Assembly (NCBI GenBank): GCA_001603595.1
Contig: LUZK01000030.1
Coordinates: 1 to 62,567 of the forward strand
Direction: 5' to 3'
DNA from: Bacteroidales bacterium Bact_19
GTDB taxonomy: Bacteria > Bacteroidota > Bacteroidia > Bacteroidales > ML635J-15
DNA: 62,567 nucleotides
Shown here: in pieces, positions 26,515 to 46,010 of the stretch
Layout of the letters: every line of letters starts with the position of its first letter
How positions within the stretch are numbered: the stretch's first letter is position 1
Program-made: the position numbers and the translations under genes
The notes under the pieces: generated by a model
Seen by the model: only the letters and a program-made list of their open reading frames with translations
Databases searched by the model: none
Told to the model about the DNA's origin: nothing

Positions 26515-27204
26515 TTATTTTGATATTTCTATTTTATATCCGATACCTTTGACTGTCTTTATTATATCTTCTCCTATTTTGTCTCTAAGTTTGCGTATAT
26601 GAACGTCAATGGTTCTTTCGCCGACATATGAATCTCCCCATACTTCATCATAAATTTCGTCGCGATGAAAAACTTTTCCGGGCTTCGAAGCAAGAAGCTC
26701 CAGAAGTTTGAATTCTTTTCGCGGTAAAATTATTTGTTTGCCGTTTTTCCAAACAATAAATTGGTCTTTGTCAATTTTAATAACTCCTAAATCTATTATC
26801 GAGTTTTCTTTTCCGGTTTGTAACGAAGATTTTTCTCTTCGTAAAAGAGCTTCGACCCTTTTAATCAATACTTTAGGGTTTACAGGCTTTGCCACAAAAT
26901 CATCAGCTCCCGATTCAAAGCCGGCAATCTGTGAAAAATCTTCTCCTCTTGCTGTCAAAAACATTTTATATCCGGTAATCTGATCTTTTCTTTTGTGTAT
27001 CTCTTCGCAAAGCTGAATGCCATCCATACCTTTCATCATTATGTCAATTATTATTACCGATGGGTTATGTTCTATCGCGGATTTTAATCCCGAAATTCCA
27101 TCTTTGGCTCTATAAACAATAAAACCTTCTTTTTTGAAATTATATTCCAGAAACTCCAGAATATCTTCGTCATCATCTATTAATAATATTGAAAATTTTT
27201 CCAT
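26515..27204 (-). CDS. OmpR/PhoB-family response regulator
   Basis: A 229-residue two-component regulator. The N-terminal receiver domain has the acidic pair in LLIDDDEDILEF, the phosphorylated Asp54 (IIIDIMM) and the conserved lysine in AKPVNPKVL. The C-terminal winged helix (about 130-229) has ERTIDVHIRKLRDKI and VKGIGYKI, typical of OmpR/PhoB. The receiver segment SQIAGFESGADDFVAKP is the form seen in Bacteroidetes PhoB-like regulators. I start it at the ATG at 27204; a TTG at 27228 would add eight unneeded residues. No histidine kinase is adjacent. The TTAA direct repeats in the divergent region (27267-27323) and the phosphatase genes nearby suggest, but do not prove, phosphate control. 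Confidence 0.93.
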   Translation of the reverse strand: MEKFSILLIDDDEDILEFLEYNFKKEGFIVYRAKDGISGLKSAIEHNPSVIIIDIMMKGMDGIQLCEEIHKRKDQITGYKMFLTARGEDFSQIAGFESGADDFVAKPVNPKVLIKRVEALLRREKSSLQTGKENSIIDLGVIKIDKDQFIVWKNGKQIILPRKEFKLLELLASKPGKVFHRDEIYDEVWGDSYVGERTIDVHIRKLRDKIGEDIIKTVKGIGYKIEISK

Positions 27205-27266
27205 AAAACTAATTTTTTTTTGCTCCAATTATAATTAGGTTTATTTAATAACAAGAAAAATGGCCT

Positions 27267-27323
27267 TTAAGTTTGTGTTAAGATTTTAAATTTTATATCA
27301 AAAAACTTAACTATTAGGTAACA
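27267..27323 (+). promoter_or_regulatory. Two pairs of 11-bp-spaced TTAA(G/C) direct repeats (putative PhoB-type sites)
   Basis: Pair one is TTAAGT at 27267 and TTAAGA at 27278; pair two is TTAACT at 27307 and GTAACA at 27318. Within each pair the spacing is 11 bp, one helical turn, as expected for tandem binding by an OmpR-family dimer. The region lies between the response-regulator gene and the lipoprotein gene. Similar repeats occur at 31574-31612 and 45849-45886. Unlike those, no good TAnnTTTG element follows at the matching distance. Confidence 0.45.
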
Positions 27324-27398
27324 TAAAATTATTATCAAATTAAAAAACTTTAAAATAAGAGATTGTTTTTTTGCTTCATAAATTTTAAAACAAGAATT

Positions 27399-28607
27399 AT
27401 GAAAAAAGTATTTAGTTTAATTTTAGTTTTTGCTAGTTTGATTTATGTAATGAATTCGTGTAAACCTAAAGATCCGGAAGAAGAACCGGAAACAACTGTT
27501 GTTATTTCTCAAAACATCACTCAAAACACTACTTGGGAAACAGGTAAGACTTACATTTTGGCTGGAAGAATTTCTGTAGTTTCTGGTGTTACTTTAACAA
27601 TTCAACCGGGTGTAGTTGTTAAAGGGCAGGCCGGAACCGGAGCTAATGCAACTGCACTGATTATTGCTCGCGGAGCTCAGATCATTGCTGAAGGAACTGC
27701 AACTCAACCAATTATTTTTACTTCTATTGCTGATGAAATTGAACCGGGAATGATTGCAAGTCCTAATATGGATCCAAACATGAGCGCATTATGGGGAGGA
27801 TTAATAGTATTAGGTAATGCTCCAATTTCTGCAGCTGCAGCATCTGTTCAGATCGAAGGTATTCCTGCTTCAGACCAGAATGGTTTGTATGGCGGAAATA
27901 ACCCCGACGATAATTCCGGTGTTTTGAAGTATATTTCTATTCGCCATGGAGGAGCAAATATTGGCGAAGGAAACGAAATAAACGGCCTTACACTCGGTGG
28001 TGTAGGAAGAGGAACAGTTGTTGAAAATATAGAAATTGTTTCTAACCAAGATGATGGAATCGAAATTTTCGGCGGAACTGTAAATGTAAAAAATGTTTTA
28101 GTTTGGAATGTTGAAGATGATGGAATTGACACTGATCAAGGATGGTCAGGAACTCTGGATAACTTTATCGTTATTTGTGGTCCGAATACCGATCATGCTC
28201 TCGAAATTGACGGTCCGGAAGGTTCTTTAATGGCAGCCCATACTGTGAAAAACGGTTCATTAAAAGGGCATCATAATTCAGAATTAGGAGATTTCAGAGA
28301 CGGGGCAAGAGGTACATTCGAAAATATATATTTCTTTGGATTTACGGATCCTGAATCTAGTGAAGGCCGTGGTGATTTATCATTATCCGGCACTCAAACA
28401 TTAGAGAATTTTGCAAACGGGATTTTGACATTTAATAATTTACAAATTACTCCTGCTGAAGGTGTAGAATTAAGTGCAATTTTCAAAAATGGTGTTGCTC
28501 AGTATGCAACTTCTGTTGCACTTAAAGCTAATACCGTTGGTGCTGATAAATCAAAATTCACATTTACTTGGGCAAACCAAAATAGTGAACTTGTTGATTT
28601 TAAATAA
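27399..28607 (+). CDS. Outer-surface lipoprotein with right-handed beta-helix-like repeats
   Basis: A 402-residue lipoprotein: signal peptide MKKVFSLILVFASLIYVMNS with the lipidated Cys21, then a charged linker (KPKDPEEEPE). The body resembles parallel beta-helix proteins: a start like TLTIQPGVVVKG, then G-rich short repeats (GGTVNVKNVLVWNVEDDG, NDGI-like turns). The start is the ATG at 27399, which gives the signal peptide; an in-frame upstream ATG (27363) adds an unlikely leader. A TonB-dependent receptor follows after a hairpin, and TTAAC-type repeats lie upstream. I infer that it helps the receptor capture a ligand at the cell surface. The ligand is unknown. Confidence 0.82.
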   Translation: MKKVFSLILVFASLIYVMNSCKPKDPEEEPETTVVISQNITQNTTWETGKTYILAGRISVVSGVTLTIQPGVVVKGQAGTGANATALIIARGAQIIAEGTATQPIIFTSIADEIEPGMIASPNMDPNMSALWGGLIVLGNAPISAAAASVQIEGIPASDQNGLYGGNNPDDNSGVLKYISIRHGGANIGEGNEINGLTLGGVGRGTVVENIEIVSNQDDGIEIFGGTVNVKNVLVWNVEDDGIDTDQGWSGTLDNFIVICGPNTDHALEIDGPEGSLMAAHTVKNGSLKGHHNSELGDFRDGARGTFENIYFFGFTDPESSEGRGDLSLSGTQTLENFANGILTFNNLQITPAEGVELSAIFKNGVAQYATSVALKANTVGADKSKFTFTWANQNSELVDFK

Positions 28608-28689: not shown

Positions 28690-31572
28690 ATGATGAAGGG
28701 AATTTTTTTTATAGGGATTTTATTTTTAGTGTCTGTTGTTGGCATATCTCAGAATGCAATTGTCCGGGGTAGTGTTTATGATTCTAAATCCGGCGAATCA
28801 ATGCCAGGAGTAGCTATTGTGGTTAAAGGTACTTCTCTTGGGACAACAACAGATTTGGACGGAAAATTTTCTATACAGTTATCTCCGGGAAATTACACTT
28901 TAGAAATTTCTTTCATTTCATACAAAACTTATGTTATTTCAGACATAAATCTAAAACCCGGACAGGTTTATGTCGCAGATAATATCATGATGACCGAAGA
29001 AAGTATTATGTTAAACGAAATTACTGTTGTTTCCAAAGAAGTACGTAATACAGAAAACGCTCTTATAGCAATGAAAAGAAATTCTGTTAATACAATAGAC
29101 GGGATTTCTGCAGTAGGAATAAAAAGAACAGGAGATTCTGATGTTGCACAAACGATGAAACGCGTTACGGGAGTTTCCGTTAGCGGAGGAAAATATGTTT
29201 TTGTAAGAGGATTAGGAGATCGTTATACCAAAACCATTTTAAACGGACTTGACATTCCCGGATTAGACCCCGACAGAAATACTGTTCAGATGGATCTTTT
29301 TCCTACGAATATAATAAACAATTTGATTGTAATAAAAACTTTTTCCGCTGATGTTCCTGCTGATTTTACAGGTGGAGTTATTAAAATAGAAACCAAGGAT
29401 TTCCCTGACGAAAAAACAAATTCTCTTTCTATTTCGGGAGCTTATAAACCGGGTGTACATTTTAACGAAAACTTTCTGACTTACTCCGGTGGAAAACTCG
29501 ACTTGCTAGGAATTGACGACGGAACCAGAACAATTCCTGCCGAAACAAATATCCCTCATTTTGCCGAAGTCATTGGCCGCCCCGATGGTGAAAAGGCAAT
29601 GCGTTATAGAGAAATCCTCAGTAAATTCAATCCTGAAATGGCTGCTAAAAAATCAAAGAGCTTAATGGATTTTGAAGGTAGTTACAATATTGGAAATCAA
29701 ACTGTTTTTAGAAAGTATAATCTCGGGTATAATTTCGCATTATCATATAAATATTCTACCGAAATGTACGAAGATGCTTTATACGCACGTTACGGAATGT
29801 ATGCAGATAAGAACGAATATGAACTCGAACGTCGCGAATTACAACAGGGTAATCTTAGCAAAGAGGAAGTTTATATCAACACACTTGCCGGATTCGCAAT
29901 TAAAACCAAAAATTCTAAATATCGAATAAATTTATTACATATTCAAAATGCCGAAAAAGGTGCAGCTATTTTTGATTATGATAAAACAAGCCAAGGAACT
30001 AATTTTAGTGGTATTGTTCATACTCTTGATTTCAGTCAAAGAAGTATTTCGAATATTATCATTGACGGAAAACACAACATCGAAAATAAAGATTTGCTAT
30101 TAGATTGGAAAATTTCTCCTACATTGAGTTTAATAAGAGACCCGGATGTTCGTTTCACACGTTACGAAGACCGTCAGGGAGTGTATTCGATAAGTACCGA
30201 ATCTGGATTTCCGGAAAGAATATGGCGAAAACTAACCGAATATAACATATCTGCCCTTGCAAGTGCTACTAAAAATACCAAGATAGGAAGTATAAAAACA
30301 AGATTAAAATTTGGAATTAGTAATACTTTCAAAAACAGATCTTTTATAATCAGAAATTTTATGATCAATATTCGCAATGTTGACTTAACGGGAGAACCTG
30401 ACGAAATATTTAAACCCGAAAATTTATGGCCTAAAAATGATAACATAATTTCTGGCACTACCTACGAAGCCCCGTTTATCCCAAATAATCCAAATCAATT
30501 TATTTCATATTCTAATACTTCGGGAGCTTATTTTTCAACAGAGTTTTCTCCTTTTGCAAGTTTTAAGTTCATTGCAGGAATGAGATTAGAGAATTATATT
30601 CAGTTATACACTGGACGAGATCAGTTAGGATACAATGTATTAAATAATGATATTGTTATTAATGAAACAAAAATATTTCCGACCTTAAATGTAATTTATT
30701 CTATAAGCGAAAAACAAAATCTTAGATTAAATGCTTCTAGAACTGTTGCACGTCCTTCATTTAAAGAAATGTCTTATGCGGAAATTTTTGATCCAATAAG
30801 CGGCAGAACATTTATAGGTGGAATGTTCCGTGATGCAAATGATATTGCAGGAATAGAATATTGGAACGGAAAACTTGTCAGCACTGATATTTATAACTTT
30901 GATATTCGCTGGGAATTATTTGGTAAAGCAAGTAATTTTGTTTCTCTTAGTGCTTTTGGTAAATTGTTTGAAAAGCCAATAGAGATAGTTCAATTTGCAA
31001 CTCAGATAGGAGCTTATCAACCTCGTAATGTTGGTAATGGCCAACTTGTTGGGGCAGAAGCCGAACTTAAAACAGATCTGGGATTTATTTCAAAAAGTCT
31101 TTCAGGTTTTGGATTAAATGCTAATTATACATACGTTTACTCTCGCATAGAGTTAAGCAAAACTGAATTTGACTCGCGAGTTGAAAATGCACGTTCGGGT
31201 CAGGAAATTTCCAAGTATAGAGATATGGCAGGTCAAGCTCCTCATATTATAAATTTTGGAATTACGTATCAGGGGGATAAAGGTATATGGAATAGGATAG
31301 AAGCAGGTCTGTATTATAATGTTCAAGGCCGTACGTTACTTTATGCAGGTATTGCCGACCGTCCGGATATTTATTCTAATCCTTTTCATTCTTTGAACTT
31401 TAATTCTAATTTTAAAATAAAAGATAATCTGCAAATAGGTTTCAAAGTTGATAATTTACTTAATGCAACCGAAGAAAATGTTTTTGTATCGTATATGGCT
31501 CAAGATCAGCTTTTTTCGAGTCTAAGGAAACCACGAACTTTTAGACTTAAAGTTGTTTATGACTTTAAATAA
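28690..31572 (+). CDS. TonB-dependent outer-membrane receptor with carboxypeptidase-like N-terminal domain
   Basis: A 960-residue receptor that would import a ligand across the outer membrane using TonB energy. After the signal peptide (to about ISQ, residue 21) comes a CarboxypepD_reg-like beta-sandwich (VRGSVYDSKSGESMPGVAI... about 24-110), a plug domain (about 125-240, with YVFVRGLGDRYTKTILNGL) and a 22-strand barrel ending in TFRLKVVYDFK. Length is normal. It follows the beta-helix lipoprotein, which may be its surface partner. It lacks SusC/SusD features: no SusD homologue is nearby, and the plug has no clear SusC motif. Substrate unknown; phosphorus compounds are suggested only by context. 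Confidence 0.93.
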   Translation: MMKGIFFIGILFLVSVVGISQNAIVRGSVYDSKSGESMPGVAIVVKGTSLGTTTDLDGKFSIQLSPGNYTLEISFISYKTYVISDINLKPGQVYVADNIMMTEESIMLNEITVVSKEVRNTENALIAMKRNSVNTIDGISAVGIKRTGDSDVAQTMKRVTGVSVSGGKYVFVRGLGDRYTKTILNGLDIPGLDPDRNTVQMDLFPTNIINNLIVIKTFSADVPADFTGGVIKIETKDFPDEKTNSLSISGAYKPGVHFNENFLTYSGGKLDLLGIDDGTRTIPAETNIPHFAEVIGRPDGEKAMRYREILSKFNPEMAAKKSKSLMDFEGSYNIGNQTVFRKYNLGYNFALSYKYSTEMYEDALYARYGMYADKNEYELERRELQQGNLSKEEVYINTLAGFAIKTKNSKYRINLLHIQNAEKGAAIFDYDKTSQGTNFSGIVHTLDFSQRSISNIIIDGKHNIENKDLLLDWKISPTLSLIRDPDVRFTRYEDRQGVYSISTESGFPERIWRKLTEYNISALASATKNTKIGSIKTRLKFGISNTFKNRSFIIRNFMINIRNVDLTGEPDEIFKPENLWPKNDNIISGTTYEAPFIPNNPNQFISYSNTSGAYFSTEFSPFASFKFIAGMRLENYIQLYTGRDQLGYNVLNNDIVINETKIFPTLNVIYSISEKQNLRLNASRTVARPSFKEMSYAEIFDPISGRTFIGGMFRDANDIAGIEYWNGKLVSTDIYNFDIRWELFGKASNFVSLSAFGKLFEKPIEIVQFATQIGAYQPRNVGNGQLVGAEAELKTDLGFISKSLSGFGLNANYTYVYSRIELSKTEFDSRVENARSGQEISKYRDMAGQAPHIINFGITYQGDKGIWNRIEAGLYYNVQGRTLLYAGIADRPDIYSNPFHSLNFNSNFKIKDNLQIGFKVDNLLNATEENVFVSYMAQDQLFSSLRKPRTFRLKVVYDFK

Positions 31573-31573
31573 G

Positions 31574-31640
31574 TTAACAATAACTTAACATAAAAATAAA
31601 ATTATAGTAACAAAGTCTTTTAAACTTCAACTTACTTTTG
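31574..31640 (+). promoter_or_regulatory. Putative activated promoter: TTAACA repeats in 11-bp register plus -7 element
   Basis: TTAACA at 31574, TTAACA at 31585 and GTAACA at 31607 lie at 0, 11 and 33 bp, one helical face. A -7 element TACTTTTG is at 31633-31640, and the GTAACA half-site begins exactly 26 bp before it, where a -33 element would otherwise be. No TTTG -33 is present. This is the arrangement expected for class II activation by an OmpR/PhoB-type protein. The same 26-bp spacing is seen upstream of the porin operon. Confidence 0.6.
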
Positions 31641-31662: not shown

Positions 31663-32001
31663 ATGAAAACCATTTTAAGTTTAGTTTTAGTCTTAACAAT
31701 TACTTTAGCTTTTGCAGGAAATATCAAAGATAAAGAACAAAAAGCAAAAAGCGAAAATTCTTTCAGCATAAGCGGTAAAATTGTTGATTCTGTTTCTAAA
31801 GAAGCTCTAACCGGAGTGAAGGTTTACGTCGAAGAATTAAATCAGGTTGTTTATACTGATTTTGACGGTAATTTTTATATTCCAGTTTCTACTGAAAAAG
31901 AAATTTCTAAATTGAAAATTTCTTACATTTCGTATGAAGAAAAGAGTGTTGAAATAAATGCAGGTAGTTCTTTAAATATTGAAATAAATAAAGTTTTTTA
32001 A
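31663..32001 (+). CDS. Small secreted protein made of one carboxypeptidase-like regulatory domain
   Basis: A 112-residue protein: a signal peptide (MKTILSLVLVLTITLAFA), a short charged stretch, then one CarboxypepD_reg-like beta-sandwich (SGKIVDSVSKEALTGVKVYV...DFDGNFYIPV...ISYEEKSVEI). The domain is the same type as the N-terminal domain of the TonB receptor just upstream, but here it stands alone with no plug or barrel. It has its own promoter with the clearest TTAACA repeats in the window and is followed by a strong terminator, so it is a separately controlled single gene. Role unknown; it may bind a receptor or a peptide in the periplasm. Confidence 0.82.
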   Translation: MKTILSLVLVLTITLAFAGNIKDKEQKAKSENSFSISGKIVDSVSKEALTGVKVYVEELNQVVYTDFDGNFYIPVSTEKEISKLKISYISYEEKSVEINAGSSLNIEINKVF

Positions 32002-32065: not shown

Positions 32066-32079
32066 ATATGTTCTGTATG

Positions 32080-32535
32080 ATGAAAAAATTTTTTTGTGTT
32101 TTAATTCCGATTCTAATTTCGCTGATGACGTTTTCACAAGAAATAAAAGAAGACGGACTGGTTTATTACGAAGGGAAACTGTTTACAGGTAAGTTTAAAG
32201 AATTTTATCAGGATGGAATAAGTTTAAAGTCGGAAACAACTGTTAAAAACGGACTGATTCAAGGCAAGTCTTATGTTTATTTTCCTGATGGAAATGTAAA
32301 GGAAGTTCGTTCTTTTAAAAATGGGCAGAAACACGGAAAATGGCTTAAATATAACGAAAAAAGCATGCTTGTTTCACTTGCCCGATACAAAAACAATCTA
32401 AAACACGGAACATGGAAAATTTGGGACGATAATGGTGTCTTACGATATTTGATGTTCTATAAAAACGGTGAAAAAAAGGGAGAGTGGAAAATGTACGATG
32501 AAAAAGGTAAACTTATTGATACAAAAAAATATTAA
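32080..32535 (+). CDS. Secreted MORN-repeat (YwqK-like) protein
   Basis: About 151 residues: a signal peptide (MKKFFCVLIPILISLMTFSQ), then four or five MORN-variant repeats of about 22 residues (YYEGKLFTGKFKEFYQDG, YFPDGNVKEVRSFKNGQKHG, KWLKYNEKSMLV, WKIWDDNGVLRYLMFYKNG). Such repeats occur in many Bacteroidetes proteins annotated as YwqK-family antitoxins, but this one is exported and no toxin is adjacent, so I do not call it an antitoxin. In-frame ATGs at 32068 and 32077 would add up to four residues; the one at 32080 gives the cleanest signal peptide. It starts right after a terminator and has no clear promoter. Confidence 0.78.
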   Translation: MKKFFCVLIPILISLMTFSQEIKEDGLVYYEGKLFTGKFKEFYQDGISLKSETTVKNGLIQGKSYVYFPDGNVKEVRSFKNGQKHGKWLKYNEKSMLVSLARYKNNLKHGTWKIWDDNGVLRYLMFYKNGEKKGEWKMYDEKGKLIDTKKY

Positions 32536-39710: not shown

Positions 39711-41605
39711 TTATTCTTTTATAAAATGTTTAATTGCCAATATTTCGTAATTAGTATTTGCAATTTCAAGAATGTATTTTCCGGAATTAAGAGTGGAAAA
39801 TTCAAAGTTCATGTATTGAATATCGCATTTAACAAATAATTCTTTTTTACTAAATACTTTTTTACCGCTTAATTCGTAAACATTAAAAATAAGTTCTGAA
39901 TCTGTATCAAGATGAAATTGAATGAAAAATTTTCCGTTTGTGGGATTTGGAAAACCTGATAACAATATGAAATTTCTTTTGTCATCAACCGAAACAGGAT
40001 TGTTTTCTCCTTGATAAGGTGTTTCGGGGACTAAATCAGGAAGTATATCATCCGATAAAGATGGATACATAGCTTCACGCACAAAATTTTCGTTATCTTG
40101 CAAATACCATGATTTTTCCCAATATCTGTTGTAAGATGTGCTGTTGATATTATCAATAAAATAATAATCGCATTGAAATCTATTGTTATTAATGTCCAAT
40201 ATAGAATAACCTCGATTTACCAGTTCAACCCATTTTACATGATTATTCTGCCACATAATTGCTGAGGCTCCAATTCCTCCCCCAAAATTTGTTGATGGTG
40301 AGGTTATACTTGTACAAATAAATTCAACTGCATTTGCACATCCCTGTCCATTATTCCCGTAGTTACCCAATATCGGATTTGGAATATCATTAGCCCATGC
40401 TGTATGTATATCTCCTGTTATAATTACATTATTCTTTATATTCCATCCAGTTATAAAATTAAGTAGTCTTTGTCTTTCGTGTTTGTATCCATCCCACTGA
40501 TCCTTATTTGCTGTCCATCCAAAAATTTCCAATGGTGCAAACATAACCTGATTTGCAATTATTCTCCACTTTATGTTGTCTTCATGATAAGAATTATAAA
40601 GATTTTGAGTTAACCATTGATATTGAGCCTCGCCAAGTAATTTTTTATCTGGAGAGTCATTTGCTAAATCTCCTGGGTCCATTCTTGCTTCGTTTCTGGT
40701 ATCTAGAAATATTAAGAATGCCAAATTCCCCCAGTTTACTGTTTTTCTAATGTAATTATTCGGATTTGAAGGATCATTAACAGGACGTAAAGGCATCCAT
40801 TCAAAATATGCTTGAATAGCAGCAGCTTTTCGCACCAAAAAATCTCCTTGGGTAGCAGGGTCGTGATTTTCTGCTCCTCCAACCCATGCATCGTTGGCAA
40901 TTTCATGATCATCCCATATTGCATACCATGGATATTGTTGGTGAATGTATCTTAAATCAGGATCTAGTCTATAATGAGAATATCTTGCACGATAATCGTC
41001 TAATGTTACAATATCATGATTTGGAACAAGCCATCTATCTGGATGATTCCCATATTGACCACTTCCGTATTCATAAATATAGTCTCCGAGATGAAAAACA
41101 AATTCGAAATCATTTCTTTCAGCTAAATCTCTAAATGCATTGAAATATCCATTGTTGTAGTTTGAACCGTGAACCATCGCAAATCTCAAATGATCAATAG
41201 GTCCTAGTATTGCGGTTTTAGTTCTTCCCATAACAGAATTTCTCCCTTCGGCATTAAAATAATAGTAATAATAAGTATCAGGTTGTAATCCTGTAACATC
41301 TATTTTTACGGTATAATCAATTTCGGGTCCCGTTTGAAATGTTCCACTTTGAACAATGTTATTAAAATTTGTATCAGTTGCAACAAACCAATTAACATCA
41401 ATACTTTCTATGCCTTGATTTAGAGGGGTTATTCTAGTCCAGATTATTACCCTATCACATGTAAAGGATCTCCTGAGGCAACCCCATGATAAAATGGTGC
41501 ATAAATTGGATCAAATGATTTTTCTATTCTGTTGCAGAAATATTGACCAAAATTCTGTAAAATAAAACTTACTAAAAGAGCTAATAACAAACTTAATTTT
41601 TTCAT
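39711..41605 (-). pseudogene. phoD: PhoD-family alkaline phosphatase with T9SS sorting domain, frameshifted
   Basis: PhoD enzymes are calcium/iron-dependent phosphodiesterase/phosphomonoesterases that free phosphate outside the cytoplasm. The gene starts at the ATG at 41605 with a signal peptide (MKKLSLLLALLVSFILQNFG) and YHGVASGDPLH. There the frame breaks: CATGTGATAGG has two extra bases (a doubled TG, about 41456-41460). Without them it reads DPLHDRVIIWTRITP, the family signature. The remaining 506 codons are open, with catalytic motifs HLGDYIYEYG, DDHEIANDAW and GDIHTAWAND. A T9SS type A domain ends the protein (GFPNPTNGKFFIQF). As written, only a peptide of about 50 residues or an N-truncated protein could be made. 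Confidence 0.88.
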
Positions 41606-41608
41606 TTT

Positions 41609-44293
41609 TTATAATTTTATGATTCTATGTAAATCTGATTTTTGATTTTCATAAAGCACAATAACGAAATATGTCCCCGATGCTAAATCAAAAACATCAA
41701 ATTCTGCTTCAGAAGTGTTTGGTTCAATATTCTTTTCGAATACGTTATATCCAAAACCATTATGTATGACTATTTTACATTTATCGTTGTTATTGTGGAG
41801 CTTTACTACAAGGCGATTTTTTGTGGGATTGGGATAAACTTCTGAATATCTACCAAGTGATAAATCTTCGATGTTAGAACTTTGGTAAGAAAAAAGAATA
41901 GAATAGATTTTAGAGTTTATACCGTTTGGTGCAACTACTACAACAGTTGTTGTTCGTTGGGCCATACTACCGTTAAGATTTGTATAAGGAAAAATTCTTA
42001 CATCCGCATTAGGGTCTTCGGGGTTTGCAGTTACTTCAACGTAACTTACTTCAGGTTCAAGTGTAACAGTATAAATATATGTGTTTGAATTAAATTCAGG
42101 ATTTAATGTTCCGCTGCTTACCAAAAGACTAGCAAGATTTGCATTGTCGGATTGATATTCAATAAGTTCTACACTTGCCGTATAAGTTACTGTGCTATTA
42201 TCATAGGCTGTTACCGTATATTGAACTGGATTTGAAAAATCTTGTGCTTGCCCGGATGGTGGCACTAAACTACTCCCTATAAAACTTATAATTGGAGTTA
42301 GGTTAGTTATGTTGGTTTGTGCGGGCATTCTAATTTTTATGGTTTTTAGATTTTGGTCAATATCTGTTTCTCCGATTTGTCCATTTATGTAAAATGAAGT
42401 TATCATTTTGGTATCATCGGCAGTTTTAACAAAATTTACTGTATATGTATTTGTGCTCAAACCATCTGCTGCATGAACAACAATAGAGGCAAGCCCTTCT
42501 ACGCTTGTTGCCTGTGTTATTGTAACAGTAGCCTGAGGATCTATAGGAGTAGCTGATACCTGTGATATTTGATTAGTTTGTGGAGGGAGTACTCCGGTAT
42601 AGTGAAAATGGTCGGGACTGAATATAGGGTCTAATTCGCCGATGCTAAGGTTTATTGATGCTAATCTGGCATCGGCAAAGTTTGCAACCTCAAAAGTTAC
42701 ATTATATGTGAGTGTTGTTGTAAGATTTTCCGCTGTTACCTCTATCTGAGTTGTTCTTTGTGCGGGGGTACCATTGAGATTAACAGCATTGGTTATTTGC
42801 AAATTTGCTCCCGGGTGATTTGGAACAGCAATAACTTGTGGTACAATTGTAGTTCCTGCCGGTAAACTTACAGTGTAATTTAAAACCTGAGGATTAAATG
42901 TCGGGTTAAGAGTTCCTAAGCTGGTGTTTAGTTGAGCCAAACTAGCATCATTACTAAATGAAAATCTGTTGTTGTACATTGTATAAACGTTGCTTCCATC
43001 CATATTCCAGTATGCAAGATTTTGAGGAAGTGTTGCAGGGGGATCATTTTCGCTTACCTGTGTTACAGAGTTTACATTTGTATCGTCAAATTTTACGGCT
43101 CTTACTTCGTATTTTTGTTTATAAACTGTAACAATATTAAAACCTGCGAATTTAGCCTGCGCTTTTGTCCACGAATAAGCTTTACCGCCTGCTGCAGTAT
43201 ATAGGTTTCGCATTGGGGCTCCCCAACTTCCTTCTCCAATATAAACACACCCGTTTTCTAAATCTAAAACATATCCGGCATCACTTCCGGGTCCTGTTCC
43301 GGGAGAAATGGGATTGGTTATTTTCATTACGTGTGTATGCCCATCCATACTTAATCTAATGTTGTATTGAGCAAATAATGTGGTCCAACAATTTATAAGA
43401 CTTGGCAAAACACTGTATTCTCCATGTGGTGCTAAAGGAATATGATATTGAATAAATTTCCAAAAAGGTTCATTTTCATTATTGGTATAATTTTGAAGAT
43501 CGTTTGTAAACCAGTTTAATTGAGTTTGGTCACATACCAAATCTGTATTTAGACAGTAAAAACGAAAAAGTTTTCCACTGCTGAAAGCATAATAATTACT
43601 ACTGTTAGGAATATCAAAAAGGTTATATAAATCGCTGTTGTCTTCGTGGTTTCCATATACCGGAGCAATGGCAGGTAAACGACGCTTTGTTTCTTCAGGC
43701 CCGATTACTCTCTGGAAATTCTCAAACCATTCCCTCCATAAAGTGTTTGCACCAACAAGGAAGTTCTCGGAAAATATAAAATCACCAGAAAAAGCAATGA
43801 AATCTGGACGAATTTTTGCGACAAGATCAAATCCCGCTCTTCGGCGTGGTACACATAAATTAGTTTCGAACTCAAATCCTGAAGCTCCTGTTCTGGTATC
43901 TCCTCCATTGATAAACATTACTGGAATATTTGGATTATCCGGAAGTGTCTTGAACGACATTCTCTGCGAAACGCTGTTGTCGTCTTTAATAACAAAATAA
44001 TATACCGTATTAGGTGTTAAATTTGTCAGACGGGCAAATCTGTTGTTCAAATCTCTATGATTAACTGTTCTATCTATTCCATGATTTAGAGGATATGCCT
44101 GCCAGTTATTACCATGATCAACTGTCCCATAATAAACTTTTGCATTGTTTGATGTGCCATCGTCACTCCAACCAATTACAATTGTTGTTGTTGGATCATC
44201 ACGATAAGATGTTCTATAAAATCTTGTTCCTGCAAGTACATAACTTGTAACTACAATGGCTAAAATAAGTAAAATGTTTTTTTCATAATCCAA
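41609..44293 (-). CDS. Purple-acid-phosphatase-like metallophosphoesterase with T9SS sorting domain
   Basis: An 894-residue exported enzyme. A signal-like segment is followed by a fibronectin-type PAP N-terminal domain (about 25-115). The metallophosphoesterase domain (about 125-400) has GGDTRTG, SGDFIFSE, YGNHED, QYHIPLAPHG and DGHTHVMK, the metal ligands of the family. Three cadherin-like beta-sandwich repeats and one DUF5018-like domain follow (about 450-805), then a type A sorting domain (VYPNPTKNRLVVKL). As written the start must be TTG at 44293. The natural ATG at 44286 is followed by A7 and is out of frame; A8 would give MKKNILLILAIVVTSYVLAG, a perfect signal peptide. Second gene of the porin operon. 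Confidence 0.87.
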   Translation of the reverse strand: MDYEKNILLILAIVVTSYVLAGTRFYRTSYRDDPTTTIVIGWSDDGTSNNAKVYYGTVDHGNNWQAYPLNHGIDRTVNHRDLNNRFARLTNLTPNTVYYFVIKDDNSVSQRMSFKTLPDNPNIPVMFINGGDTRTGASGFEFETNLCVPRRRAGFDLVAKIRPDFIAFSGDFIFSENFLVGANTLWREWFENFQRVIGPEETKRRLPAIAPVYGNHEDNSDLYNLFDIPNSSNYYAFSSGKLFRFYCLNTDLVCDQTQLNWFTNDLQNYTNNENEPFWKFIQYHIPLAPHGEYSVLPSLINCWTTLFAQYNIRLSMDGHTHVMKITNPISPGTGPGSDAGYVLDLENGCVYIGEGSWGAPMRNLYTAAGGKAYSWTKAQAKFAGFNIVTVYKQKYEVRAVKFDDTNVNSVTQVSENDPPATLPQNLAYWNMDGSNVYTMYNNRFSFSNDASLAQLNTSLGTLNPTFNPQVLNYTVSLPAGTTIVPQVIAVPNHPGANLQITNAVNLNGTPAQRTTQIEVTAENLTTTLTYNVTFEVANFADARLASINLSIGELDPIFSPDHFHYTGVLPPQTNQISQVSATPIDPQATVTITQATSVEGLASIVVHAADGLSTNTYTVNFVKTADDTKMITSFYINGQIGETDIDQNLKTIKIRMPAQTNITNLTPIISFIGSSLVPPSGQAQDFSNPVQYTVTAYDNSTVTYTASVELIEYQSDNANLASLLVSSGTLNPEFNSNTYIYTVTLEPEVSYVEVTANPEDPNADVRIFPYTNLNGSMAQRTTTVVVVAPNGINSKIYSILFSYQSSNIEDLSLGRYSEVYPNPTKNRLVVKLHNNNDKCKIVIHNGFGYNVFEKNIEPNTSEAEFDVFDLASGTYFVIVLYENQKSDLHRIIKL

Positions 44294-44294
44294 A

Positions 44295-45803
44295 TTAAAA
44301 TTTATATTGTAACCGTATTGTTAAACAGTCGTCTTTAATATCTTTTTCAAAACCAGGAGAAGGTCTTTGTCCTAATCTTATATTTCCTGTAAATGATCCT
44401 ATCCCTGTATTTTCATTCGTAACATTTTCATAATATACGGTAAATCTCAAATTAGGATTGATATCCCAAACCCATCCGATACCAATTGTAGAAAATTTTA
44501 CATCTGCCGGCGAAAGAAAAGTATTGCCAGCTTGATGGCCGTCATTATCGAAGTATAATAATTTAATTTTTTTGTCAGATACATCGGTATTTGGATCATA
44601 CCAGTCGTATTTTATTAATAATTTATGTTTTGATTCTAAAATAGTTTGAGTAATAGAAACATAACCTCCATTAAAATTTCTAACCATTGTACTATGGTAT
44701 TTGTTAGTGGGTTTTACCATGGTAGGATTATATGGTTGAGGTTGATCATATAATGGCCATGCCACTCCAAGTTGAGGTCCTGTTGGTGAAAAACTGTTTA
44801 TTTCGTTGTAAACTACGTAATCTTTTTCAATATTTATATTATTTACAGCAGAAGGTTGTGTTCCCCAAACATATTCTGCACTGATTTCTGTTTTACCAAA
44901 AGGCGAATTAACTTCAATTTTGCCGTCAATCCCATAATAAATTCTTTCAACTCCAATTCCTCTAGTTCCGGATGCAAATGTTTTACTCGTGTCTATGTAA
45001 AATCCTTTGTAAGATATTCCTGCGGTATCGGTTAAATTACCAAAATAGTATATGTAATATTTTGTATTTGTATTGGAGGCAATTGTATCAACAGGTTCAT
45101 AAATGTGAAGCATTTTTCCGTTGTAATATGATGCTCCTACTGAAGCTTTGATATTTTGTATTGATTTTGGTGTTAAAAGGTTAATTCTTCCAATGTAATC
45201 TTTATAGTTATTGGTTTCTACTGCAGAACTGTTTCCATTAACTATTGCACCCTCGATTCTAAAGAACGAAAGATTAGAATCTTCGGGGAACTGAAATCCA
45301 ATTTTTAATCCTAAATCTCTTTCGTTTGGTAATATAGTTTGTATTACTCTTGAACGTTCAGGGGAATATCTGATTGAAGATGATTCTTCAGGTTCAATTC
45401 CAAATGGTCGTGGAAAAAGTCCGGCAGTAATGTTTAAAGCTTCAAATCCCTGAATGGAAGACTTTATATAAATATCTTTAATTCCAACACCTCTTTCTGA
45501 AACGTCAATGGATATTTTGGAGCTTGTAAAATCTTTTTTATAAGATAAGTTTATTCGTCCTCGTCTGATCATAAACCTTTCAAAGGTATTGTCATTAACA
45601 AAATTTCCTCCGCTGAAATGAGCAAAATCTCTACGTGTCGAACCAATCGAATCCGGAATAAAAAATTTTTGATATTGTGTCTGAATATAACCGGAAAATT
45701 TTATCTTTTCATCATCATCTTATTCTATGTTTTGTGAATAAAGATTTAATCCCTGAAATAAAATTAATCCGAGTAAAAAGTAAATTAATTTCTTTTTGTG
45801 CAT
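44295..45803 (-). pseudogene. Phosphate-selective porin O/P family protein, in-frame TAA at codon 28
   Basis: A porin of the OprO/OprP family, outer-membrane channels linked to phosphate uptake. From the ATG at 45803 the frame gives a signal peptide (MHKKKLIYFLLGLILFQGLN, then LYSQ), then NIE, a TAA (45720-45722), then DDDEKIKFSGYIQTQYQKFF and the barrel, all in one frame to 44295 (503 codons). Family marks are the start of the barrel (FSGYIQTQYQ), FMIRRGRINL, and GLFPRPFG, ending in RLQYKF. Only the single stop codon disturbs it, just after the signal peptide. A truncated protein could start at the ATG at 45572 but would lack export. First gene of the six-gene operon, with its own repeat-bearing promoter. 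Confidence 0.85.
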
Positions 45804-45831: not shown

Positions 45832-45886
45832 CAAACATAATTTTATTACATTAAGGAATTCGTAAATTAATGTTAAGTAATTGTAA
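45832..45886 (-). promoter_or_regulatory. Porin-phosphatase operon promoter with TTAAC-type repeats
   Basis: On the minus strand, reading toward the porin: TTACAA (45886), TTAACA (45876), TTACGA (45865), TTAATG (45854), spaced 10, 11 and 11 bp, then a -7 element TATGTTTG (45839-45832). TTACGA begins 26 bp before the -7 element, the same spacing as GTAACA in the promoter at 31.6 kb, and TTAACA 37 bp before. There is no TTTG -33. The predicted leader is about 20 bases. Confidence 0.6.
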
Positions 45887-46010
45887 ATATATTTTTATAA
45901 TTATTGAAAAATCAGTATTTTAAATAAATATTGTTATTAATTGTGAATATCTGTTTTTAAAGTTATTTCATAGAAATAATTTTGTTTTACTATCTTTACA
46001 AAAAAAAGTT

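Follow-up and report, generated by a model that had tools for sequence, protein, structure and literature searches.

A probable Pho box of TTAACA-type direct repeats, locked in phase to the -7 element of Bacteroidales promoters

The promoter of a small gene in a Bacteroidales genome carries an array of 11-bp direct repeats (TTAAYA/GTAACA) that is very probably a Pho box, the site to which phosphorylated PhoB would bind when phosphate is low. The array, called site A here, lies in a stretch of 62,567 nucleotides from Bacteroidales bacterium Bact_19, which was analysed at its full length and is referred to as the window. The array is conserved among relatives, locked in phase to the promoter element behind it and associated with phosphate genes; the regulator encoded at 26515-27228 is predicted to bind it, and phosphate shortage would be the signal for activation. 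In soils, seas and guts alike, Bacteroidota play a major part in scavenging phosphate, and their phosphate regulons are known from transcriptomics. A definition of a PhoB site for the phylum was not found in the literature by title and abstract, with subscription journals mostly beyond reach. A phase-locked box could serve as a regulon predictor, and also as a clean system for the study of an activator at a promoter with a -7 element and without a -33 element.

The housekeeping promoter of Bacteroidota consists of a TTG at -33 and a TAnnTTTG element at -7. Site A possesses the -7 element (TACTTTTG, 31633-31640, plus strand), which is conserved in relatives as T(A/T)nnTTTG at the same phase, and no TTG was found in its usual -33 zone. 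Upstream, five units follow each other on the plus strand, with positions counted from the first T of TTTG (31637) as zero: TTAACA at -63 (31574-31579), TTAACA at -52 (31585-31590), a degenerate ATAAAA at -41 (31596-31601) in a slot that is well conserved among relatives, GTAACA at -30 (31607-31612), and a weak TTTTAA at -19 (31618-31623), where the commonest letters in relatives are TTAATA. The original prediction placed TTAACA, TTAACA and GTAACA at offsets 0, 11 and 33, followed after exactly 20 bp by the -7 element, and all of these positions were verified. It also held that the array replaces the -33 element, and this is borne out by the phase lock to -7; a TTG was present in the -33 zone of 2 of 28 promoters, which does not exceed chance, since shuffles give 11%. 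Over the whole window and on both strands, site A is the sole TAnnTTTG site with at least two in-phase KTAACA units. When the window was shuffled 150 times with its dinucleotides preserved, phased KTAACA pairs or triples never appeared, and a single shuffle contained an 11-bp KTAACA array with any three of four units. Two marks of a Pho box are present: the direct repeats have an 11-bp period, and they stand in for the upstream promoter element at a constant distance from the downstream element.

On direct repeats, PhoB-like proteins form head-to-tail dimers in which each monomer occupies one 11-bp repeat, as established for E. coli PhoB. At site A, low phosphate would give rise to phosphorylated PhoB, which would fill the array head-to-tail on one face of the DNA. 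The last slot of the array ends nine bases before the -7 element, and its fixed helical phase would offer a surface of the kind that sigma otherwise meets at -33. Bound PhoB would then keep RNA polymerase and sigma at a promoter with only a -7 element, and the gene at 31663 would be turned on. That PhoB binds this class of site is a prediction drawn from the analogous pstC promoter of B. fragilis (PMC3547664), and the low-phosphate induction of promoters with a box is predicted by analogy with a like cluster that is induced in F. johnsoniae (PMC8115612).

The gene behind site A encodes P112 (31663-32001, plus strand), a 112-aa protein with a CarboxypepD_reg-like domain, and its ATG starts 22 bases past the end of the -7 element. 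Its conserved neighbour, a MORN-repeat protein gene (32068-32535, plus strand), is perhaps read through from site A. Two more phased arrays, more degenerate, are present in the window. Site C (27307-27373, plus strand) consists of TTAACT, GTAACA, TTATTA and TTAAAA in 11-bp steps (27307-27345), with the -7 element TTTTTTTG at 27366-27373, and lies upstream of a lipoprotein gene (27399-28607, plus strand). The lipoprotein is FII-like, probably a beta-helix by analogy with FII, has no Pfam or NCBIfam match, and is placed like Fjoh_0546 in the PhoBR operon of Flavobacterium johnsoniae. The TonB-dependent receptor gene that follows (28690-31572, plus strand) is presumably in one operon with it. On the minus strand, at 26515-27228, is the gene for a PhoB-type response regulator whose best NCBIfam models are TIGR02154 (PhoB) and NF053854 (Bacteroides PhoB); it stays under the equivalog cut-off of the former (181 bits versus 296) and under the cut-off of the latter (179.5 bits versus 270). 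By reading of the gene list, no histidine kinase is among the genes that neighbour this regulator.

Site B (minus strand, 45887-45832) carries TTTACA, TTAACA, TTACGA and TTAATG in 11-bp steps from -52 to -19 (45849-45887), with the -7 element TATGTTTG at 45832-45839. The first gene of the operon behind it (44295-45803, minus strand) is porin-like by reading, with no Pfam or NCBIfam match. On the same strand are the genes for a purple-acid-phosphatase-like protein (41609-44293) and a PhoD-like phosphatase (39711-41231), each with a T9SS tail. Sites B and C would act like site A, for the porin-phosphatase operon and for the operon of the lipoprotein and TonB receptor, respectively. The porin-like gene contains an in-frame TAA at codon 28 (45720-45722, minus strand), just past the signal peptide, which means either a degraded gene or a sequence error.

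In the genome of Bact_19 itself, nothing reaches the family cut-off for PstS, and the PstC-like match is weak (E 5.4e-9) and below the cut-off. The enrichment of boxes before pst genes can therefore be tested in relatives only. For the same reason, most of the regulon of this genome may consist of outer-membrane uptake and phosphatases. A TTAACA array at C112:68742 lies at a distance of about 1 kb from a second lipoprotein paralogue of this genome, which has 45% identity (G000 C112:66734-67663, minus strand).

Matches to the lipoprotein (E <= 0.001) were obtained in 137 of 198 genomes of the order. The relatives considered here are the 19 best lipoprotein loci of other genomes, one per genome, representing 18 genera. 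All 19 possess the TonB receptor; the MORN protein is present in 13, a homologue of P112 in nine, and a PhoB-type regulator divergent to the lipoprotein gene in eight. The cluster adjoins a pst operon in one relative (L106, with a pstC family match at the same place), PstS in another (L111), and a PitA-type permease in two (L105 and L120). In F. johnsoniae, a PhoBR cluster with a TonB receptor and the FII lipoprotein, the latter of pectate-lyase-type fold, was reported to be induced upon phosphate depletion, with table values of 8.02 for the receptor, 9.91 for the lipoprotein, 3.06 for PhoB and 0.76 for PhoR (PMC8115612).

Spacing and phase were assessed on the upstream regions of 20 lipoprotein and 10 P112 genes (n = 28 without the window). 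The best three-unit score had a mean of 11.6 at a spacing of 11 bp versus 2.4-4.3 at 7-10 and 12-17 bp (n = 28), and 200 shuffle rounds gave a mean of 2.8, a standard deviation of 0.6 and a maximum of 4.5. At the phase -63/-52/-41/-30/-19, a score of at least 9 was reached in 22 of 30 regions; each of ten other phases gave 0-2 such regions out of 30. MAFFT placed 32 of 33 promoters without gaps in the register of site A and displaced the remaining one by exactly 11 columns. These 33 were chosen by eye among 47 promoters (alignment A1), and the alignment is not independent of the scoring matrix described below, because 23 of the 47, beyond the 24 training rows, had been found with that matrix.

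The original prediction proposed to scan the genome with a consensus, and such scans did not tell the sites apart from chance: 41 matches versus 53 in the reversed control were obtained for three units when up to 3 mismatches were allowed, 102 versus 86 for the phased pattern when up to 2 were allowed, and 508 versus 488 in the control for TTWACA pairs at 0-30 bp. Those of the three-unit matches in the genome of Bact_19 that were inspected precede genes that read as ileS, rpsL, arginine deiminase, phosphotransacetylase type, and others. One of them (C53:5798) has the phase of site A, with a matrix score of 3.4, while the other inspected ones with a nearby -7 element are off phase; the inspected consensus matches were provisionally treated as chance. 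Only a position-specific model separates the sites from chance, and since the simple patterns were not clearly enriched, a position-specific matrix was used instead.

The matrix for the scan of the window was built from 24 of the 30 promoters, all from other genomes. The two rows of the window were left out deliberately, as were two without the TTTG anchor (P112 of L108 and FII of L113) and two that fitted badly (P112 of L119 and FII of L112). Site A scored 28.2, site B 14.2 and site C 11.4, and the fourth place in the window scored 6.6. Ten shuffled windows produced two scores of at least 10, namely 13.9 and 13.4, so that scores like those of sites B and C may also arise by chance; these two sites stand out by place more than by score. 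The gene class behind site B, a porin-phosphatase operon, was absent from the training set.

A leave-one-locus-out test was performed on the genes of 19 loci with 26 of the 30 rows, including those of the window and never those of the locus under test, at a score of at least 11. A box was found before 17 of 18 lipoprotein genes (that of L116 was omitted), 7 of 9 P112 genes and 5 of 8 phoB genes, as well as before the single PstS gene, one of two PitA genes and one of 13 MORN genes. None was found before the TonB receptors of the 19 relatives. Other genes had a box in 2 of 75 cases; one of these two boxes (L114) occupies the region upstream of a P112 gene, on the other strand. A sample of 400 kb of the genome of Bact_19 contained no match of at least 11 and two of at least 10; outside this sample, matches of 13.8 (L238) and 12.2 (L061, with no gene behind it) were obtained. 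At two places, L119 7678 (plus strand) and L114 8438 (plus strand), TTAACA arrays lie on the strand opposite to P112 genes, and the boxes there may work both ways or be doubled.

A sequence-only model, R1, ranks site A at the top of the 31 matches listed for its own genome (E 0.004). This list, obtained by scoring 150 of the 4862 first-look candidates, does not include site B or site C. Inside the window and without filters, the bit scores from R1 are 20.4 for site A, 12.7 for a place within the porin gene, 10.1 for one at 680, 10.1 for site B (fourth) and 5.8 for site C. Applied to Bacteroides, R1 gives the pstC promoter of B. faecichinchillae no better than E 2.7, and that of B. faecis is not among the matches listed. 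The model is good for site A and poor for Bacteroides and for sites B and C, in our view because short local matches to an A/T-rich model carry few bits. The second best R1 match of the Bact_19 genome is L238 (G000 C83:5439-5502, minus strand; E 0.016), and a 396-aa gene starts 174 bases further on. The best R1 match in both Bacteroides genomes (L234 in B. faecis, L236 in B. faecichinchillae) is a conserved 11-bp array of GTAATA/GCAACA with a TTTG, located before a gene of unknown function.

Boxes were also sought at other phosphate genes, on both strands, with a threshold of 9 for pstC, PF12849, PF07396, porin and lipoprotein paralogue loci and of 8 for PitA. Matches occur in 6 of 30 pstC loci, the genes behind them being PstS, some other binding protein or a porin by reading, and the other 24 are without a box in the DNA covered; pstC is frequently internal to an operon. 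The lipoprotein paralogue loci have a box in 7 of 10 cases, two of these also before phoB. Boxes were present in 4 of 25 PF12849 loci (21 without), in 6 of 30 PitA-type permease loci (24 without, including that of the Bact_19 genome), and in one of the 18 porin loci, with a further, unexplained place shared by two overlapping loci (15 without). By and large, the box precedes phosphate-starvation genes and not others, but 2 of 75 other genes do score and many phosphate loci have no detectable box. In L126, a PstS-type gene and an adjacent gene that reads as a porin each have their own box, at 2438 and 3602 on the minus strand (scores 42.9 and 24.4). In L111, a box with a score of 12 at 862 (minus strand) precedes a gene read as a phospholipid acyltransferase type, possibly for lipid remodelling at phosphate shortage.

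The pstC promoter is the top-scoring place of its 3.7-kb locus in 18 of 22 Bacteroides-type loci, those of B. faecis MAJ27 and B. faecichinchillae JCM 17102 being among the loci with a boxed pstC promoter. The 22 comprise 20 of 29 drawn loci that were over the family cut-off, and two named ones, with L363 counted as unconfirmed; the group was drawn around Bacteroides faecis, and sizes of 1.7-7.0 Mb suggest that it is a wide one. The units there are GTAACA, GAAACA, TTCAAA, GTCACA and TTAAYA, in the phase of site A. A matrix-free spacing test with GTAACA on these promoters gave 13.7 at 11 bp versus at most 4.5 elsewhere, in a set that includes four upstream regions on the wrong strand. In B. fragilis, recombinant PhoB was reported to bind a 512-bp pstC promoter fragment in vitro and pstC expression to require phoB (PMC3547664). 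Among lipoprotein loci from across the phylum, 11 of 29 have a match of at least 9, and the spacing test on 24 of the 29 gave 5.7 at 11 bp versus at most 2.6 elsewhere, with shuffles reaching at most 3.05. The signal is weaker in 20 further lipoprotein loci, several of which were taken to be from Flavobacterium: 9 have a match of at least 7, and the spacing test on 16 of the 20 gave 5.4 at 11 bp, with other spacings reaching at most 4.4 and shuffles at most 5.3. Within the order and at the Bacteroides-type pstC promoters the box is thus firm, and the evidence for it in the phylum beyond these is suggestive.

Three other explanations of site A have to be weighed against the Pho box. The array could be the site of another regulator of the OmpR family, RprY-like or broad like the PhoP of Riemerella, perhaps with many other targets. 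Such breadth has a precedent within the phylum, as the TTTAACA motif of Riemerella PhoP was described as ArcA-like and precedes hundreds of genes (PMC9603813). In the genome of Bact_19, TTAACA arrays also lie before the genes read as ileS, rpsL and phosphotransacetylase type, and the regulator at 26515-27228 falls below the PhoB cut-offs. We nevertheless consider this reading unlikely, given that the phased box is found at phoB, PstS, PitA, pstC and porin genes but at few other genes, and that B. fragilis PhoB was reported to bind the promoter class that carries it (PMC3547664).

An upstream element rich in A/T, or repeats that arose by chance in an A/T-rich genome, would fit a G+C content of 0.325 and the loose repeat patterns, which are about as frequent as in the reversed control; yet the 11-bp spacing and the phase recur in 18 other genera, the spacing also beyond them, and exact phased triples were absent from all 150 shuffles, which makes this explanation very improbable. 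Hardly more credible is a hairpin (TAAGTTA-ACAA-TAACTTA) formed by the first two units, by which the transcript of the TonB receptor would be ended or attenuated. The 7-bp inverted repeat does exist and starts within the stop codon of the receptor gene, but its fold has a z-score of only -0.63, 48 of 200 shuffles fold equally well, and no terminator-like site was found, so that a hairpin and a terminator were both rejected as explanations of site A. The Pho box remains the preferred reading, as does the geometry of a PhoB/OmpR activation site on which the original prediction was based: the array is conserved before orthologues at a fixed phase to -7 and before few other genes, and boxes precede phoB, PstS, PitA, porin and Bacteroides pstC genes.

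Judged by its unit, the Bacteroidota box resembles the PhoP box of B. subtilis more closely than the box of E. coli. The PhoP consensus, TT(A/T/C)ACA at about 11 bp in several units, includes TTAACA, as had been predicted, and site A resembles that box in its hexamer, its period of about 11 bp, its several upstream units and its association with phosphate genes. The promoter and the phylum differ: the PhoP box works with a -10 element of the sigma-A type, whereas the Bacteroidota array is locked in phase to T(A/T)nnTTTG at -7, without a -33 element. The E. coli PhoB box is like the array in being made of 11-bp direct repeats that replace the upstream element and end about 10 bp before the downstream one. 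However, its unit is CTGTCAT, usually present twice, and this heptamer is not found in the Bacteroidota consensus, TTAAYA/GTAACA, which occurs in three or more units and in six in one Bacteroides pstC promoter.

Within the phylum, the claim that no Pho box had been defined needs amendment, since a DAP-seq motif containing TTTAACA has been published for PhoP of Riemerella anatipestifer (PMC9603813). It shares with site A the phylum, an OmpR-type regulator and the TTTAACA core. It was presented as ArcA-like with 583 peaks, no phase to a -7 element was noted there, and the main text of that paper does not contain the terms 'pst' and 'Pho box' (PMC9603813). The B. fragilis study concerns the same class of promoter as the one that bears the box, and it defines no motif, with a main text that does not mention motif, repeat or consensus (PMC3547664). 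Putative Pho boxes have also been reported in plcP clusters of marine bacteria (PMC4796936).

A wider proposal, to which we give about even chances, is that a single phase-locked Pho promoter with only a -7 element (-63/-52/-41/-30/-19) serves much of Bacteroidota, with a unit that resembles the one of Bacillus PhoP more than the one of E. coli PhoB, and with PhoB replacing the contact of sigma at -33. If this is true, specificity of the TTAACA type may be older than that of the E. coli type, and the box would allow the phosphate regulon to be read from any Bacteroidota genome.
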